A stretch of DNA of 64,000 nt from Altererythrobacter sp. H2. Lineage in GTDB: Bacteria; Pseudomonadota; Alphaproteobacteria; Sphingomonadales; Sphingomonadaceae. This document shows positions 17,282 through 24,293 of this stretch, piece by piece. The number at the start of each line of letters is the position of its first letter. The stretch's first letter is position 1. The position numbers and the translations under genes were made by a program. Location: assembly GCF_035319885.1 (NCBI RefSeq), contig NZ_CP141285.1, forward strand, positions 3,170,001-3,234,000, given 5' to 3'. The notes beneath the pieces were generated by a model. That model saw only the letters and a program-made list of their open reading frames with translations, did no database searches and had not been told where the DNA came from.

Positions 17282-17818
17282 ATGGCACGCTGGTACATCA
17301 TCCACGCCTACTCGGGCTTCGAAAACAAGGTCCGCGAATCGATCATGAGCGAGGCCGAACGGCTCGGCCTGAGCGAGGCGATCGAGGACGTGCAGGTCCC
17401 GACCGAGACCGTGACCGAGGTCAAGCGCGGCAAGAAGGTCCAGGTCGAACGCAAGTTCATGCCGGGCTACGTGCTGGCCAAGCTGAAGCTGACTGACGAT
17501 GTCTATCACCTGGTCAAGAACACCCCCAAGGTGACCGGCTTCCTCGGCGCGGGGAACAAGCCTCAGCCGATTTCCGACCGCGAGGCGGCCCGCTACTTCG
17601 GCGGCGTCGAAGAAGCCAAGTCGGCCCCCAAGCGCGAAGTGCAGGTGGAGTACGACATCGGCGACCAGGTCAAGGTCAACGCCGGACCGTTTGCCAGCTT
17701 CAACGGCGTGGTCGAGGAACTCGACTTCGACAAGCAGCGGGTCAAGGTCAGCGTCTCGATCTTCGGCCGCGCCACCCCGGTGGAACTCGGCTTCGAGGAA
17801 GTCGAACTGGTCAAATAA
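17282..17818 (+). CDS. nusG: Transcription termination/antitermination protein NusG
   Basis: 178 aa, starting [18 protein letters not shown]-terminal NGN domain (about 1-110) binds RNA polymerase and the C-terminal KOW domain (about 125-178; [21 protein letters not shown]) contacts NusE or Rho. Normal length. The usual downstream rplK-rplA cluster is not here; a convergent stress-protein gene follows at once. Confidence 0.97.
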
Positions 17819-17842
17819 GGCACCCGGCGCTGCTGCCCGGCG

Positions 17843-18643
17843 TCAGTGCGCCAGCAGCAGCGGGATGCTTGCCGTATTCAGCAGGTCGTGGGTGGCTCCG
17901 CCAAACACCGTCTCGCGCAGGCGGCTGCGGCCATAGGCACCCATCACCACCATCGCGGCCTGCATCCGCTCGGCTTCCCGTGCAATGATCACGGCGGCCG
18001 ATTCGCGGGAATCGACCGTTTCCAGCCTAGCCGTGATGCCGTGGCGGGCCAGGTAGTCCAGCGCCGCATCATCGGGCAGCCGCCCTTCGTCCGGCCCCAC
18101 GCGCAGCACCATGACCTGCCGCCCCGCCAGCAGGGGCGTGGCCGAGCGCAGCGCAGCGGCAGCTTCGTCGCTGCCATTCCACGCCACCAGCACCGGACCG
18201 GACAGATCAAGCTCCCCGCCATCCTCAGGCAGCGCCAGCACCGGCACCCGGGCGGCCAGAGCCACGTCGCCGGCCAGCATGGCATCGGGCATGACACCGC
18301 CCTTGCCCGGCAAGCCAACCAGCACGACATCGGCCAGCGCGGCAGCGTCGGCAAGCGCGCCGGCCGCCTCATTCTGCACCGTGACCAGATCCCACGGAAC
18401 ATCGCTTGCCGCCATGTTCTCCGCCAGTCTTGCTGCCAGCGCTGCATCGCGTGTCTTGGCTTCGGCGAAGGCCTCGGCAGCCAGATAAGTACCGCCGAAC
18501 GGGTCCATCGCCACAAAGCGCTGGAACGGCGAGTTGACGAGGACCGTGACATGGCCGCCGCAGCGCCGGGCGAGACCCCGGGCCGCCGCCAGCCGCCCCT
18601 CTGCGCCCGGACCGTGATCGGCGTGAACCAGTATGACCTTCAT
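17843..18643 (-). CDS. Universal stress protein (UspA family, two-domain)
   Basis: 266 aa cytoplasmic protein. The start at [11 protein letters not shown] was chosen because AGGGAGAG sits 5-6 nt upstream; the longer frame has no site. The C-terminal domain has an ATP-binding-type loop [15 protein letters not shown] (close to G-2x-G-9x-G-S/T, with G/A in the last place) and ends ASIPLLLAH as usual. The N-terminal domain is degenerate. It is convergent with nusG, 24 bp apart, and is the last clear core gene before the accessory region. Confidence 0.85.
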
Positions 18644-18994
18644 CGCATCTCTCCCTGCTGATCGAAGCGGGGAGAGTTTCGGACGGCACGCCGCGCGCCG
18701 CAATGACATGGATCAAACTTCAGGGTCGGGAAATGACGGCCCAATCTAACGATGTTTGCAGCTTGACGAGCGCGCAAGAAAAAATTCCAGTCTATTTGGG
18801 CAAAGAGATGCCGGAACGCCAAGCTAAAGTTCGCTCATTGTGAGGCAGGTGCAAATGAATCCGTAAAATACGACTTCACGCTCCCGCTCTCTCCCTCAGC
18901 TACACCATAAACAATGCCGTGCCGCCTACTTGCCTAGCCGCATCCATTTGTTAGGCTATCACTCAGGCTTAAGGATCGGAATTAGGGCGGCGAT
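18644..18994. other. Gene-free stretch at the left edge of the accessory island
   Basis: About 350 bp with no convincing gene on either strand. It covers the shift from GC-rich usp sequence to lower-GC sequence from roughly 18,720 on (AT-rich words such as CAAGAAAAAATTCCAG). AGGG lies 7 nt before the next gene's ATG. I looked for a copy of the tRNA-Gln 3' end (GCGGGGCATCCA) as an attachment site and found none. No terminator was recognised. Confidence 0.5.
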
Positions 18995-20275
18995 ATGGAA
19001 TGGGAGAAGCTGCTTTGCGGCGAACGACTCGGTGATAGCAGGTACGAGCAAAAGCCTGACCGCTCGATCTTCGTCCAGGACCATGACCGCATCGTCTTTT
19101 CGGCGCCTTTCCGCCGCCTCGCCAACAAAACGCAGGTCCAGCCCCTCTACGAACACGACCATGTCCACCATCGACTGATCCACTCCGTAGAGGTCAGTAG
19201 CGTCGGCCGTTCGCTGGCAATGCGGATCGGCGCCTGGCTCGAAGAGACCGGCCGGATCGAGCCCGGAGTGTCGAGCGACCTCGCAAGCATCGTCCAAGCG
19301 GCGTGCGCTGCCCACGACATCGGCAATCCGCCGTTCGGCCATTCGGGTGAGAAGGCTATGGGCGACTGGTTCGCCGAGCGCTTCGCCAATCCGAAAGGAA
19401 TCATGGCGGACGTCGAGGAACCACATAGGGCCGAGTTCATCGAATTCGAGGGGAACGCGCAGGGCTTCCGCATCATCACTCGGCTGGAGATGTACCGCAA
19501 TCAGGGCGGCATGCGGCTCTCAAAGGCTATGCTAGGCGCTTTCACAAAGTACCCCGTCTCCGCGGCGGTCCAGGCAGCCATCGTGGGCAGCGGAAAGGCC
19601 CCTTACATCGGATTGAAGAAGTTCGGCCTATTCCGCTCCGAGGTCGACCTGTTCCTCGACGCGGCCACCACGCTTGGCCTTCCCCGCCAGACCCACGAGT
19701 CCGGGACTTGGTGGAAGCGGCATCCGTTGGTGTTCATCGTCGAGGCCGCGGACGACATCTGCTACAACATTGTCGATCTGGAGGACGCGTTCACCACCGG
19801 GGAGCTCCCCTTTGAGACCGTCAAGCTGCTTCTCCTTAAAGCAACGGGTAATTCCAACAAGGATGCCTCCGGTCTGAACCAGGCGGAGCACATAGCCATG
19901 TTGCGAGCCGTGAGCATCGGTGCGGCCGTCAACAGCTGCCTCGAGGCATTCAAGACCAACTACGATGCGATCATGAAAGGCGAATTCTCGGGCTCGCTGT
20001 GCGGATCCGGTCTAATGGGCTCCGTCTTTGACGAAATGAAGACGCTCTCGAGGGACGAAGTGTTCACGGCTCGCCGGAAGACTGAGCTAGAGGTGTCGGG
20101 CCGCCGCGTGATCCAGAACGTAATGTCCGGCGTCATTCCAGTCTTCGAGGATCTAGCGAGTGCTGACTGGAGGGTCGAAAAGCTCAAGCCCCATAACGTC
20201 CAACTAATGCGGGCGCTTGATCTGGACATCAGGCACGTCGGCGACGCCGATCGGCCCACACTCGCCCCTTCATGA
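18995..20275 (+). CDS. dGTPase-family deoxynucleoside triphosphate triphosphohydrolase
   Basis: 426 aa HD-domain enzyme that would cleave dNTPs to nucleoside plus triphosphate. Family hallmarks: FVQDHDRIVFSAPFRRLANKTQV (here about 26-48), the metal histidine in HRLIHSVEVSSVGR (about 59), the HD pair in AAHDIGNPPFGHSGE (about 108) and the later aspartate in EAADDICYNIVDLED (about 250). All metal ligands appear present. AGGG precedes the ATG. GC is lower than in the neighbours and it lies in the accessory block, so it is probably not the housekeeping dgt. dGTPases are known to restrict phages by depleting dNTPs, which fits the neighbourhood. Its 3' end overlaps the convergent TnsA-like gene by 47 bp. 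Confidence 0.88.
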   Translation: MEWEKLLCGERLGDSRYEQKPDRSIFVQDHDRIVFSAPFRRLANKTQVQPLYEHDHVHHRLIHSVEVSSVGRSLAMRIGAWLEETGRIEPGVSSDLASIVQAACAAHDIGNPPFGHSGEKAMGDWFAERFANPKGIMADVEEPHRAEFIEFEGNAQGFRIITRLEMYRNQGGMRLSKAMLGAFTKYPVSAAVQAAIVGSGKAPYIGLKKFGLFRSEVDLFLDAATTLGLPRQTHESGTWWKRHPLVFIVEAADDICYNIVDLEDAFTTGELPFETVKLLLLKATGNSNKDASGLNQAEHIAMLRAVSIGAAVNSCLEAFKTNYDAIMKGEFSGSLCGSGLMGSVFDEMKTLSRDEVFTARRKTELEVSGRRVIQNVMSGVIPVFEDLASADWRVEKLKPHNVQLMRALDLDIRHVGDADRPTLAPS

Positions 20276-20855
20276 TCAGACGATGGACAGCAGCGCGCGC
20301 GCGACAGGTGTTAACCGGATCGAGCGCGCGGATGAGCTCGCCGTAGGTAGTTTCGGCGGTCTCGGTAGCGAGCTCCTCGAAACGCGGCATCAAATCGTCA
20401 ATATGAGCGGCGCGATCGAAATAAATGTTTGCGACATTGACCTGCCGCTCGCCTGATCCCTTAATCTGATCGAGCGTCCATGGGCTAAACTGCCAACCAA
20501 GGCGCGACAGCGTCAATTTTACGGCTTGCAGCTTGGCTTGGTAATCCGATTTTGCGAAATCGGCCGATGAGCGTTTAATTTCGCGGATGTGGACTGATCC
20601 GTCCCGCGTTACGTACACCACGTCGCAGATCCAAGATGCGAGCTTGCCTGCCACAGGCAACTCGATTCGGAACGGCTGAAACTGGTAAAAGTTGATATCG
20701 GGGTCGGTGGCGCAACGCATCATCGCGGGGCCTTCGGCAATGCCTTCAGTGGGCTGCCCGAACCGCATCTGTGGGTCGCGCCGCATCGCAATGACGTGAC
20801 GGTGCACCGAGCCAATCAATCGCCGGACCGCCCCACCACGGCTCGAAACGAACAT
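20229..20855 (-). CDS. TnsA-like PD-(D/E)xK endonuclease, orphan
   Basis: 208 aa from this ATG (up to 244 aa if the frame opens at 20963; no strong ribosome site decides). The pattern matches TnsA endonuclease: DINFYQFQPFRIEL, then the nuclease core with Asp in WICDVVYVTRDG and ExK in HIREIK (about residues 70-95), and a C-terminal winged-helix-like tail (TTYGELIRAL). TnsA cuts the 5' ends of Tn7-like elements together with TnsB and TnsC, but no TnsB (DDE), TnsC or TniQ gene is nearby. It could be the remnant of a Tn7-like element or a stand-alone TnsA-fold nuclease used in defence. Confidence 0.62.
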   Translation of the reverse strand: MFVSSRGGAVRRLIGSVHRHVIAMRRDPQMRFGQPTEGIAEGPAMMRCATDPDINFYQFQPFRIELPVAGKLASWICDVVYVTRDGSVHIREIKRSSADFAKSDYQAKLQAVKLTLSRLGWQFSPWTLDQIKGSGERQVNVANIYFDRAAHIDDLMPRFEELATETAETTYGELIRALDPVNTCRARAAVHRLIMKGRVWADRRRRRA

Positions 20856-21181
20856 GTTGGCAATCGGCTCGCCATCATGTGACCGCCGCTCTTGCGGGCG
20901 CAAAAGGCGCGCGTCGACGGCTCCGGTGCCACGGTTTGCAGGGCAGGATGAGACGGCGAGCATCTATCAGCCCACCAGGCTGCGAATGCTTGTCGCAAAC
21001 TGGCTATTCAGGATCCAAGCGAATCCAGCCCGAGCGGCAATACCCACGTAGCAGACGTCGCACGACAGCGTAGCATCGGGTGAGAGCGCGGATTTTCCTT
21101 GGTGCCACGCCCAGAGACGCAGCATGTGATGCTTAAACCGTTCCATAAACCGGGTCACTACACACGTTTTGATAAAGGTGT

Positions 21182-21220
21182 CAATACGGTATTGCATAAC
21201 TGTGCCGACCCGACTATATC
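21182..21220 (+). promoter_or_regulatory. Possible promoter with overlapping palindromic operator
   Basis: A perfect palindrome CAATACGGTATTG (21182-21194) overlaps a candidate -35 element TTGCAT (21192-21197). This is followed after 17 bp by TATATC (21215-21220), 23 bp before the 70-codon gene. Such an arrangement fits a repressor site for the HTH protein encoded next. The promoter elements are weak matches; the palindrome is certain. Confidence 0.4.
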
Positions 21221-21243
21221 AAGCTCCTAATGGAGTCTTAAGC

Positions 21244-21456
21244 ATGGGTCGCTTCACGGTTTACTTGATGGGGTGCGCGGAGGGCCTGCCGGTGGAGCTC
21301 GATGCCACGTCGGTGCACGATATCGAACAAGGTATCAGGGGGAGCCGCTTCATCGCAGGTGAACTCATCGATGTTCCCAATAGCGATGGGGTATTCGTCA
21401 ATAGGGCTGCACTGATCCCCATCTCACGCCTACGAATGATATTGGAGGACGACTGA
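21244..21456 (+). CDS. Small hypothetical protein paired with HTH gene
   Basis: 70 aa, MGRFTVYLMGCAEG at the start, no signal peptide or membrane helix. Start chosen at the ATG with GGAG 9 nt upstream. The stop TGA shares its last base with the ATG of the following HTH gene, so the two are translationally coupled. I do not recognise the family. The sequence is acidic and beta-prone (ELIDVPNSDGVFVNRAALIPISRL), as in small cofactor or antidote-like proteins, but no function can be claimed. Confidence 0.65.
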   Translation: MGRFTVYLMGCAEGLPVELDATSVHDIEQGIRGSRFIAGELIDVPNSDGVFVNRAALIPISRLRMILEDD

Positions 21457-22061
21457 TGACGCCGTTAGAGGATTGGCTTCAACCAGCTAGCATTGAGTTC
21501 GCCGTCTACACTCCGGGCGATCTAGAACGGGTAAGTGGCCTCAGCGGGGAAATGCAGCGTGTGTGGAGACGTCGAGGCCATCTTCCGTCTCCGGACAGCG
21601 GACACGCTCGGTTCACAGGTCTCGAGGTGCTCGAGATCACAATACGGACTGCTCTAAGTAAGGCGGGCATACCCCCAAGCGAAACAGAAATCGACCTTAC
21701 ATCCGCCACCAAAGCGGCCATGTACTATGCAGTGTTCAGCCACGGAGCAGTTGAAGTCATTGGTCCGACATCAAAAGTGGACCATTTTTTGAACGTATTC
21801 GAAGAAAATGGCGAACTCGGCCTGCGACTTGTCGGCAATCCGCCAGCGTCACCATTTTTTGTAATGAACGATAAACGAGAATCGCGAATCGTAGATAACG
21901 CTGACGACTTGATTCTCGATCACGAAGAACTGAACCTCGTCTATAACTTACGAAGTCTTGGAGAAAGATTGGTTGAGCGAGGCCGCAAACCGATTATCGT
22001 CGTTACATGGCCGAACGAATCAAATGAACGCTTCAAGCGGCGACTCACAAATCTGATTTAA
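21456..22061 (+). CDS. MerR-like helix-turn-helix protein of unknown role
   Basis: 201 aa. Residues about 17-65 look like a MerR-type HTH (YTPGDLERVSGLSGEMQRVWRRRGHLP followed by RFTGLEVLEITIRTAL). The rest (about 75-201) is an unrecognised alpha/beta region ending in RKPIIVVTWPNE. The lower-GC codon use (AAA, GAA, TTT-rich) contrasts with the core genes. It probably binds DNA, possibly the palindrome upstream of its operon. It could be an island or prophage regulator; the C-terminal part might bind a ligand. Confidence 0.68.
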   Translation: MTPLEDWLQPASIEFAVYTPGDLERVSGLSGEMQRVWRRRGHLPSPDSGHARFTGLEVLEITIRTALSKAGIPPSETEIDLTSATKAAMYYAVFSHGAVEVIGPTSKVDHFLNVFEENGELGLRLVGNPPASPFFVMNDKRESRIVDNADDLILDHEELNLVYNLRSLGERLVERGRKPIIVVTWPNESNERFKRRLTNLI

Positions 22062-22087
22062 AAATATCATCTTCAACCTTTAGGGCA

Positions 22088-22116
22088 TTGACTTTTCCGA
22101 TAAGTTTCTTTATAAT
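22088..22116 (+). promoter_or_regulatory. Near-consensus sigma-70 promoter
   Basis: TTGACT (22088-22093), a 17-bp spacer and TATAAT (22111-22116): one mismatch from the full E. coli consensus, which is rare in GC-rich alphaproteobacteria. It lies about 115 bp upstream of the 189-codon unknown gene and points at it, leaving a leader of about 108 nt. Confidence 0.7.
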
Positions 22117-22230
22117 AGTAGGCCTATCCAGTCATCAAACCTCGCCTATGTGCAGTTTGTACTTCGGATTGTGGCGCGGAAGCTATGTTTCGTTGCCTGG
22201 CTCCATCCAATTTTTCTTTGGGAATCTTCC

Positions 22231-22800
22231 ATGACAAAGTTTGTCGTCCAGCAGCAATTGCTGGGTCTATCCGCTTGTCAGCGCTTGTGCGGGACCTCGT
22301 CGGCCGAAACCGAAAAGTTGGCCTGGCAGGCGGGCTGGCGCGGCTTACCGGGACAATCGATGCAGCCCCCCCTCGGCACCGTGATCAACATGATGGTGCT
22401 GTCCATCGGCAGGAGCAACGGCGTTGAACTAGATGCAATGGGTGCTTGGCTGCCGCGCTTGCGAGATGAAGCAGTATTGAAATTGGCGGCGGAAGCCACC
22501 AATTGGTCATTTAACGGATCTGACGACGACCAGCGAGATTTTTGGCCTTTGCTGTACGGGGATGATAAACTGATTCGTTCTAGAATTGGCTCACTTCTCG
22601 GTTGTTACTCGGACAACCCAACTCGGCAATTGCGCGTCCACTCCCAGCGAGACGTAGAACATCTTTCATATCTTCAGGTGGAACGAGGGCTGAACTCTGG
22701 GCGGCCTCCGCTTTTCACGATTGACGCACACGATATTGCTCGGCAGGTTACGTGTAACAGTAGTGCACCGTTCTTTACCGCCAAGTCCGTACAGATCTAA
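22231..22800 (+). CDS. Hypothetical protein, strong promoter, accessory
   Basis: 189 aa from MTKFVVQQQLLG; an in-frame upstream start would add 27 residues that look like translated leader. GGGA lies 8 nt before the ATG. No signal peptide, membrane helix or known motif; the middle is helical with many Trp and Asp (NWSFNGSDDDQRDFWPLLYGDD). Not recognised. It follows the near-consensus promoter and a gene-poor stretch of about 230 bp comes after it with nothing recognisable. Placement among defence-type genes is the only functional hint. Confidence 0.55.
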   Translation: MTKFVVQQQLLGLSACQRLCGTSSAETEKLAWQAGWRGLPGQSMQPPLGTVINMMVLSIGRSNGVELDAMGAWLPRLRDEAVLKLAAEATNWSFNGSDDDQRDFWPLLYGDDKLIRSRIGSLLGCYSDNPTRQLRVHSQRDVEHLSYLQVERGLNSGRPPLFTIDAHDIARQVTCNSSAPFFTAKSVQI

Positions 22801-23029
22801 GCGCAGCACTCTATGTACTAGCCACACGACGCTTCGCCTCCATGCAGCACCACGGCGCTCCATGGCGGGAGGTCTAAAAGACGCGTGCCCCCGGCATTGA
22901 CCCGAATCCTCCGGTCGTCCCACCGCAATGCTGATTCAGCGCAGTCAGTGCCACCACTTACATACCCTCAGCTCCCATTTAATGGCCGACAATAACCGTG
23001 AGGGTTCCGCCACATCAGTGAGGATTGCA

Positions 23030-23554
23030 TTAGCGACGAGAATGCAATGGCTCGCCCTTTCTCAACTGCAATCGCACCAGCATGGCTCTAGCCAGGCTAG
23101 GTGATATGCGGCGATGCAGGGACCAAAGTTCCTCTGTGTGGCAATTGCCCACGCGCCGCCCGCTGCCACACGGGCAGGGCCAATGTCCTTTTGGCCAGGG
23201 CTGACGCAGCAACCGCAAATAATAGAGAATGTCCTTCCGCCGGTTGGCGATGCCCAAGGCATCGGCATAGGCTTCTTCCATGCCCGCCATTCCATGTGCA
23301 CGCTCACCAAACGGCCAGCTGCCGGTCTTCTCGAACCAGAACTGACCGAGGAAATACTCGCGCAAGGGACCGGCTAGATAAGCCGCAAATCCGGTATTGT
23401 CGGCTGTAGCCAACCAGTTTTCCCAGACCGTCACGCAGCAATCGCCTTCACCGTTGATATGGTGGTCGAGATCTCGGGTGACACGCCCGCCGGTCTCGAA
23501 AACGCGCGGTTCGACGCGCGGGTAGGTCACCGACCATTCCGGGTGAGCAGGCAC
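23030..23554 (-). pseudogene. E2-like (ubiquitin-conjugating fold) protein with C-terminal SEC-C zinc motif, N-terminally truncated
   Basis: 174 codons from a GTG; an in-frame stop lies 12 nt further upstream. Residues 9-50 look like the core of a prokaryotic E2: PRVEPRVFETGG, then HINGEGDCC giving H32-x-N34-x-x-G37 with Cys39/40, which matches the H-x-N-x-x-G-x-x-C active-site spacing of bacterial E2-like proteins. After a conserved-looking FEKTGSWPFGERAHG stretch (about 74-88), residues 127-139 form a SEC-C zinc motif CPCGSGRRVGNCH. The usual E2 N-terminal helix and first strands are missing, and the opposite strand at this point encodes a DUF499 fragment, so the gene was probably cut by a deletion. 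E2-like proteins occur in type II CBASS and related defence systems; no nucleotidyltransferase partner is present. Confidence 0.55.
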
Positions 23555-23817
23555 CTGCGCCTGCTACCCCCACACCTTCCGAGCGCAATCCGACCCGGTT
23601 CAGTGGCGTAGTGGCAATTTCGGCCGACCGTCCAGCTCGCGACATGCATCAGATTGTCGAGGCGATTGTTGAGCAACTGACCACGCTTCCCGGTAGCAAG
23701 GTAACTTTGCGTCTCGAGATCGATGCTGAAGTGCCGAGCGGATTGGACCGCGCTAAAGTCCGCACCCTCATTGAAAATGCGAACACTCTGGGGTTCTCCG
23801 AAAGGTCAGTAGAATGA
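23542..23817 (+). pseudogene. C-terminal fragment of a DUF499-type (AAA ATPase) protein
   Basis: About 91 codons open from here, with no start of its own suited to a complete protein (GTG at 23611 is internal). The sequence reads as a Pro/Ala-rich linker, then NPTRFSGVVAI, a helix ending EQLTTLPGSKV, TLRLEIDAEVPSGL, VRTLIENANTLGF and the stop. This is the order I recall for the C-terminal tail of DUF499 proteins (about 1,000-aa P-loop ATPases found with DUF1156 methyltransferases and helicases in phage-defence islands). The remaining 90% of the gene is absent; upstream lies the head of the E2-like gene on the other strand. Likely a deletion remnant. Confidence 0.65.
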
Positions 23818-24219
23818 CGAGGTGCACGCAGGCAGCCGAAAGTCAGCCCAGATTGACTTTCAGAAACCATCCGATGGTCGTCATTGCCAAGGGACCAAAA
23901 TCTTTGAGGCTAGCATAGCTTGCACTAGGTCACGTCCATCGGCAGAGATGGCGTATCGATGCACGGAAGCGATTGTTCCGCTTTCCGCCGCTGTTGCCCT
24001 AGACCCCATAGCCCAGCGAATATCGGATTTTTGCGTCGGCGCTGGCCTATTTGCACAGCAAACGCGGGACAAGGTTGATACCGCATTCGCCTCTATCGGA
24101 CGCAGTTAAAGCCTAAGGGAGGCCCAGCAGGGCTATTCTGCCCTGAAGTGAGCGCCGCTGCGGCAATTGCAGAATTAACTTGTGCCGGCCCATACAGTTA
24201 ACTTGGGCCGTCAGGAAAA
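23818..24219. other. Gene-poor right edge of the accessory island
   Basis: About 400 bp without a convincing complete gene. On the minus strand, 23881-24072 reads as a 63-aa frame ending HRYAISADGRDLVQAMLAS, which resembles the end of a winged-helix regulator and may be another gene remnant. A 95-codon frame on the plus strand here shows no family features. The tRNA-Gln 3' end lies at the right border. No terminator was recognised. Confidence 0.4.
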
Positions 24220-24293
24220 TGGATGCCCCGCAAGGATTCGAACCTTGATTGACGGAGTCAGAGTCCGCTCTCTTACCATTAGAGGACGGGGCA
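24220..24293 (-). tRNA. tRNA-Gln (anticodon CTG)
   Basis: 74 nt with encoded CCA. Acceptor stem TGCCCCG pairs with CGGGGCA, the D arm is CCTCTAATGGTAAGAG, and the anticodon stem GCGGA/TCCGT has loop CTCTGAC giving CTG, which reads CAG. The T arm contains GGTTCGAATCC. The discriminator base is T (U73), not the G73 of enterobacterial tRNA-Gln. Its 3' end faces the accessory island, the usual orientation for tRNA-targeted integration, although no duplicated 3' end was found. Confidence 0.95.

Follow-up and report, generated by a model that had tools for sequence, protein, structure and literature searches.

Does the short E2-like protein with a SEC-C zinc tail that is encoded in the genome of Altererythrobacter sp. 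H2 belong to a poorly described orphan family, or is it what remains of a known defense system? The gene lies within a stretch of 64,000 nucleotides (contig NZ_CP141285.1, positions 3,170,001 to 3,234,000), which is called the window here. A first-pass annotation had described a headless E2 protein with a SEC-C tail in a decayed island, linked it to short type II CBASS and suspected an orphan family. The open reading frame was found exactly where that annotation had placed it.

23030..23554, minus strand: E2-SEC-C fragment open reading frame, 174 aa, GTG start
23435..23461, minus strand: E2 active-site stretch H32-x-N34-x-x-G37-x-C39-C40 (HINGEGDCC, residues 32-40)
23138..23176, minus strand: SEC-C motif CPCGSG...CH, residues 127-139 (CPCGSG 127-132, CH 138-139)

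We conclude, with a probability of about 0.92, that one internal deletion truncated an E2 gene here and left its 3′ two thirds; the gene would have belonged to a type II short CBASS housed within an Hma island.

The E2-like nature of the fragment was borne out by profile searches. Its best PADLOC match was the CBASS E2 model PDLC00861 (E = 1.1e-74, profile positions 64-218 of 232). Nine PADLOC E2 or E1-E2 models matched the fragment, PDLC00861 and seven others at E of 0.0018 or better and the ninth at 0.013; the models matching alongside PDLC00861 have about 216-241 positions. As a sequence match, the agreement with E2 profiles is far beyond chance. H32 and C40 of the fragment align to columns that are invariant in 14 aligned family sequences. 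In the numbering of a full-length relative (L009), the invariant residues are H81, C89, H136, G140, C176, C178 and C187, of which H81 and C89 form the active-site pair and C176, C178 and C187 are the SEC-C cysteines. The homologues thus keep the active-site H and C. The fragment carries the SEC-C metal ligands C-x-C-x(8)-C-H as CPCGSGRRVGNCH, and the three SEC-C cysteines were present in all 26 family E2s checked, with variation in the last ligand. The SEC-C tail is therefore present as described, with the Pfam SEC-C model (PF02810) scoring sub-threshold on the fragment (E = 0.077, 13.3 vs cut-off 20.4). No prokaryotic E2 family of Pfam matched the fragment at E≤1, no NCBIfam family matched the window protein, and E2-ntca (PF20298) stayed below its cut-off on L009 (18.7 bits vs 27.5). 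A profile of the family searched against solved structures matched a ubiquitin-conjugating enzyme (E = 4e-6) and a SecA zinc tail (E = 5.7e-5); sequence comparison, which here covered the 60 of 113 matches listed, singled out no solved stand-alone E2 of CBASS, although one may exist.

Structure prediction, which the first-pass annotation had proposed as a check, gave only moderate UBC-type matches for a full-length relative and a poor model for the fragment. Modelled alone, the fragment reached a pLDDT of 51.6 from a shallow alignment of 11 rows, with blocks over residues 1-100 at 29-48, and a UBC fold was not evident. The full-length L009 model (pLDDT 70.4; shallow alignment, 9 rows) matched UBC-superfamily chains moderately: the best 50 rows of VIA-align were all of UBC, UEV or RWD type, led by FANCL (Z 7.2), TSG101 UEV (7.0) and UFC1 (up to 6.3), where Z under 8 is modest by the program's own note. 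A Foldseek search of the same model against the PDB returned no match at E≤0.001.

The fragment is indeed headless. Its homology starts at residue 6-7, which is profile position 63-64, so about 63 N-terminal residues are absent; these correspond to the first helix and the first strands in the predicted model of L009. Residues 6-168 align to intact E2s, and residues 1-5 coincide with the deletion joint described below or fall past it. An N-terminus hidden in another frame upstream was considered and rejected, since the three upstream frames showed no E2 continuation and, together with tblastx, revealed HmaC and stops only.

One scan of a species-genome collection recovered 10 relatives with 59-84% identity, aligned from residue 6 to residue 155-168. 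The neighborhoods of L004 and L009 were scanned gene by gene with profiles, and the others were judged from lists of open reading frames and from partner tails. In L004 (Erythrobacter colymbi), a patatin phospholipase, which is a CBASS effector in PADLOC, lies near a WYL regulator, HmaA and a PDC-M11B-like small gene, and the row goes on to HmaB and HmaC. The gene order in L009 is patatin, CD-NTase (DncV-like domain, E = 3.6e-9), E2, in direct succession. These gene orders point to a short CBASS of type II nested within an Hma island; the available text on Hma describes helicase, methyltransferase and ATPase genes (PMC8565338). The link to short type II CBASS stands, both by the PADLOC model and by L004 and L009, where a patatin and/or a CD-NTase lies ahead of the E2 and Hma genes are close by. 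Among the seven locus genomes searched for HmaC (L004-L010, with L002, L003 and L011 outside this search), six had it nearly full length and L006 had none. In 199 genomes of the family, HmaC was found in 12, among them the window with its relic and seven with a nearly full-length gene of 78-87% identity, and the E2 in four, counting the window. Hma without E2-SEC-C is commoner in these genomes than Hma with it.

Erythrobacteraceae CFH 75059 (L006, genome G019) has an open E2 adjoining a shortened CD-NTase, and no HmaC in the genome; the gene that comes then resembles the ArdC-like gene of L004 in length and start. This locus is a partly decayed cassette. Phylum-wide SEC-C matches, found in 355 of 398 genomes, were rejected as relatives because most of them were SEC-C tails in long frames, which by their length are probably SecA. 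Among the matches listed in the phylum scan, only those of G000, G1034, G1155 and G272 match most of the profile, and 48 genomes of the class of G1034 held no relative beyond G1034. Four single-protein scans of viral collections yielded no relatives, nor did two queries against phage records.

What adjoins the fragment in the window is the 3′ end of HmaC, and a relic of this kind agrees with the decayed island of the first-pass annotation.

23540..23817, plus strand: 3′ end relic of HmaC (AAA+ ATPase), up to residues 1002-1097 of 1097, TGA at 23815-23817
23527..23540, no strand: approximate joint left by the deletion, from E2 codon ~64 to HmaC codon ~1002, placed to about 15 bases

The PADLOC HmaC model matches 23596-23817 (profile 868-938 of 941, E = 3.8e-12), and the relic is 79% identical to the E. 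colymbi HmaC (3193527-3193814, genome coordinates). E2 homology reaches about 23524-23539, and HmaC on the plus strand begins at about 23527. The ORFs scanned around the fragment gave no CD-NTase or effector match, the HmaC relic being there instead. Across the whole source genome, a profile search gave a single PDLC00861 match, and HmaC was likewise matched once, by this 3′ relic; with HmaC reduced to the relic, the trio of HmaA, HmaB and HmaC is incomplete.

In all six records of L004-L010 that hold HmaC, the E2 gene lies at one end and HmaC at the other, each with its 3′ end facing out. Between the positions that meet in the window there are 13.4 kb in Erythrobacter colymbi, 13.8 kb in L089 and 17.3 kb in L090. 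Because the two genes lie at opposite ends of the island and kilobases apart in relatives, one internal deletion explains the truncation. Supported by this comparison, such a deletion would have joined E2 codon ~64 to the last ~96 HmaC codons. By the E. colymbi layout it would have measured 13.4 kb and, reading the lost genes from the layout of relatives, would have taken the patatin effector, the CD-NTase, the WYL regulator, HmaA, the PDC-M11B-like small gene, HmaB and most of HmaC.

A different E2/HmaC joint exists in G180, a genome of the same family, in which the E2 from about residue 89 (window protein) is fused to the last HmaC codons. This scar (L014, 1501-1840) joins the 3′ ends of the two genes about 200 bases from a tRNA-Arg. 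The sequence TGCCCGCC at the G180 joint is common to the HmaC of L018 and the window E2; the E2 of L003 has only TGCCC of it. Since the G180 joint is distinct and involves the same two genes, the loss happened at least twice. The scars flank tRNAs, a tRNA-Arg at G180 and a tRNA-Gln at the window, where the following features delimit the inserted stretch.

24220..24293, minus strand: tRNA-Gln (CTG), edge of the inserted stretch, where homology to the same-genus genome resumes
17818..24217, no strand: stretch with no counterpart in G033, a genome of the same genus, where about 1.07 kb of different sequence is found instead

The G+C content is 55.6% in the 20.2-24.2 kb part, vs 66.2% for the window. 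A genome of the same species, 70% complete, showed nothing that matched this region, a result that its incompleteness makes indecisive. Within the stretch absent from G033, a dGTP triphosphohydrolase-like gene (18995-20275, plus strand; TIGR01353 E = 9.6e-83, PADLOC dGTPase E = 1.2e-57) is possibly a defense gene. The frame at 20229-20963 on the minus strand showed a weak, below cut-off match to a TnsA-like transposase endonuclease (NF033179, E = 2.6e-7), and 22150-22800 on the plus strand had no match in Pfam, PADLOC or NCBIfam.

Is the fragment dead? A dN/dS of 0.06-0.11, with dS near saturation, indicates a mostly purifying history. The window branch carries 14 non-synonymous or multiply changed codons to 22 synonymous ones, a significant excess relative to L002 (2:24, p = 0.007) and not relative to L004 (3:15, p = 0.13). 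This codon excess fits a recent loss of function and is no proof of it. Because the frame is open over 174 codons, the catalytic H, N and C and the SEC-C residues are intact and the overall history is purifying, any decay would have to be recent and some residual role is conceivable. These same features would suit a functional short E2 retained after the deletion, for example as a dominant-negative or scavenging protein. However, the first ~63 residues are gone, the neighboring ORFs scanned contain no cyclase match and the genome only the one PDLC00861 match, the excess of changed codons sets the branch apart from L002 (though not from L004), and the model of the fragment, built on a shallow alignment of 11, is poor. 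We consider a retained function improbable. Having no partner and modelling poorly alone, the fragment is most likely a dead relic, and its product, if made, would be non-functional because the first ~63 residues are missing and there is no cyclase.

The naturally short E2-SEC-C orphan family suspected in the first-pass annotation could appeal to two similar lengths, 174 aa for the fragment and 172 aa for a Carnobacterium protein. The latter, on a megaplasmid (L040, 3018-4492), is a headless E2-SEC-C with an IS30 transposase gene directly upstream and an S-4TM effector gene after it. The two joints contradict a common short form, with HmaC upstream in the window and the IS30 transposase gene upstream in Carnobacterium, whose E2 is headless for another reason given that upstream gene; the remaining 25 measured E2-SEC-C frames are at least 212 aa. 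PADLOC, moreover, already models such proteins as CBASS E2, and the relatives are no orphans, having CD-NTase and patatin genes adjoining. An orphan family is thus highly improbable. As the truncation coincides with the deletion joint with HmaC, the fragment testifies to a CBASS lost from within an Hma island rather than to a separate family. It is a fossil of a kind already known. Alone it is a modest find, the trace of a CBASS cassette lost from an Hma island by an internal deletion that the 3′ ends of the two outer genes survived, as seen twice independently. The E2-SEC-C family matters more than this fossil, and the relatives yield a more interesting and testable claim.

This claim concerns the C-terminus of the partner encoded upstream of the E2. 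At all 28 E2-SEC-C loci where the upstream partner could be read, its C-terminus carries a [KRS]P[WYH] tail, which takes the form [KR]PW in 23. Among the first 25 loci, 20 had [KR]PW, two SPW (L042 and L045), and one each KPY (L015), SPY (L029) and RPH (L024), and one to five variable residues followed the motif. A search of 321 genomes from a different class of the same phylum later added three loci, whose partners have the ends KPWGMHE, KPWRA and KPWREA. The [KR]PW rule was fixed first and fits 11 of the 16 loci read after that; S at the first place and Y or H at the third were added afterwards, so that the wide pattern is partly post hoc and only the three held-out loci L107-L109 postdate its final form.

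The initial tail set comprised 26 loci, from which L040 was dropped because the IS30 transposase gene replaces its partner. The tail of L011 (QSKPWAQS) was scored by hand, as the script had picked another frame. The scar L014, the weak SecA-like loci L025-L028, L030-L032 and L047-L072, and the duplicates L013 and L046 were excluded, and 10 of the 13 E2-SEC-C plasmid records were used, the other three being additional L. salivarius records. Tails were also counted for L003, L006 and L011, whose cyclases are incomplete, shortened or broken. The 28 loci represent about 15-17 lineages; 26 E2 representatives, including L040 and without the near-identical L003, L005 and L006, formed 18 clusters at 50% and 15 at 40% identity. 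In the background, the wide pattern occurred in the last 12 residues of 2 of 418 mechanical ORFs from the window and the other loci, a recount that leaves out the cyclase copies still contained in an earlier figure of 5 of 481 for [KR]PW.

Twenty-six of the 28 partners look like CD-NTase genes, mostly by ORF sequence and not each by profile. The other folds are represented by one case each. A Chryseobacterium plasmid (L034, NZ_MN657149.1, 2530-4651) carries a PycTM and PycC operon with the E2-SEC-C gene overlapping the cyclase; this partner is a Pycsar cyclase (PADLOC PycC, E = 2.3e-116) with the tail NRPWLKRS. A Runella plasmid (L041, NC_015694.1, 2899-4636) carries an MBL-fold hydrolase gene that overlaps the E2-SEC-C gene and has the tail AKPWQRG.

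The wide pattern was absent from all 15 control partners, namely 14 homologues picked from lists (two of 31 PycC, three of 24 MBL and nine of 125 CD-NTase) and an unannotated Lactococcus PycC. The three control MBL homologues adjoin an E1 of ThiF type, and KPMG lies at or near their C-termini. Three control CD-NTases with neighbors of Cap2 and Cap3 type end in KPAGFGGK, KPQGFGGAE and SGQFIVNIG. A Sutcliffiella plasmid (L086, 2420-4944) carries a CBASS with a short E2 without SEC-C (PDLC00876, E = 5.4e-61), and its CD-NTase ends in RTNTFYGQ, without a KPW-like tail. Therefore, in this sample, the tail tracks the SEC-C-type E2 and not lone E2s generally, and CBASS E2s seem to fall into two types that differ in the tails of their partners. 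The pattern agrees with the available text of Jenson et al. 2023 (PMC10097602), where E1-containing systems have a C-terminal Gly or Ala and no conservation is reported in other architectures. We found no published description of SEC-C or KPW in CBASS in a search that covered subscription literature poorly, and an earlier account of the tail may exist; among the literature matches listed for Pycsar in combination with E2s, none was a Pycsar paper.

From these sequences we infer that E2-SEC-C may recognize and process the partner tail without an E1. The proposed mechanism concerns the relatives and not the window fragment. An intact E2-SEC-C would recognize and bind the [KR]PW-like tail of its partner, and the cysteine equivalent to C40 would attack the tail. 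The resulting cut or exchange would yield a thioester without E1 or ATP (transpeptidation), from which the partner would be passed onto lysines and thereby switched on. The SEC-C tail may assist in binding, whether of tag, partner or target. The step without E1, the part played by SEC-C and the site of the cut are all putative.

The partners might instead share the tail because they descend from one ancestor, or because the tail region overlaps the start of the E2 gene. That 26 of the 28 partners look like CD-NTases, that several tails overlap or abut the E2 start and that about 15-17 lineages stand behind the 28 loci all speak for this explanation. It accounts less well for the same tail on a Pycsar cyclase and an MBL-fold protein, for the KPMG ends of E1-adjoining MBL homologues, for the tailless CD-NTase beside a short E2 without SEC-C and for the low background (2/418 ORFs). 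We think it unlikely. We lean, with reserve, towards the view that E2-SEC-C is a portable E1-independent module for a [KR]PW-like C-terminal tag on any fold, tag and E2 having been acquired, beyond CD-NTases, by a Pycsar adenylate/guanylate cyclase and an MBL hydrolase. If true, ubiquitin-like conjugation of the partner would be a shared on-switch across unrelated defense enzymes. To our knowledge, the action of a lone E2 on a cyclase without E1 is only partly understood. A conserved tail on three unrelated folds would offer a residue-level and testable answer, and would make it possible to predict E2-only conjugation in CBASS, Pycsar and MBL operons from their sequences.

Among known systems, the fragment stands closest to the type II short CBASS E2 with SEC-C (PDLC00861; effector, CD-NTase, E2), with which it shares sequence, active-site residues and SEC-C, and its relatives share the same operon order. 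It differs in having lost the N-terminal ~63 residues and the partner genes, and in being joined to HmaC. The short CBASS E2 without SEC-C (PDLC00876, 158 positions; L086) is likewise a lone E2 adjoining a CD-NTase, together with a phospholipase. However, that of L086 has 155 aa, no SEC-C and a CD-NTase without the tail. In work by Yan and colleagues in 2024, a stand-alone CBASS E2 of Serratia marcescens reportedly acts on its cyclase, with C-terminal processing and poly-conjugation; this E2 may be of the kind without SEC-C.

In the Hma system, E. colymbi has HmaA, HmaB and HmaC beside its CBASS, whereas the window has only the last ~96 HmaC codons. According to one report (PMC11153139), conjugation of cyclase to cyclase has been proposed as the activating step in a short type II system whose sole conjugation enzyme is an E2. 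In type II CBASS with Cap2 and Cap3, the cyclase is conjugated via its C-terminus in a ubiquitin-like manner, according to the available text of Jenson et al. 2023 (PMC10097602). As described there, this system needs an E1 domain and a C-terminal Gly or Ala, whereas the partners of E2-SEC-C have a [KR]PW-like tail followed by variable residues. Finally, the Pycsar PycC proteins of Citrobacter, Alteromonas and Lactococcus have no such tail and no E2 was seen adjoining them, whereas the operon of the Chryseobacterium plasmid has both PycC and PycTM, plus E2-SEC-C.
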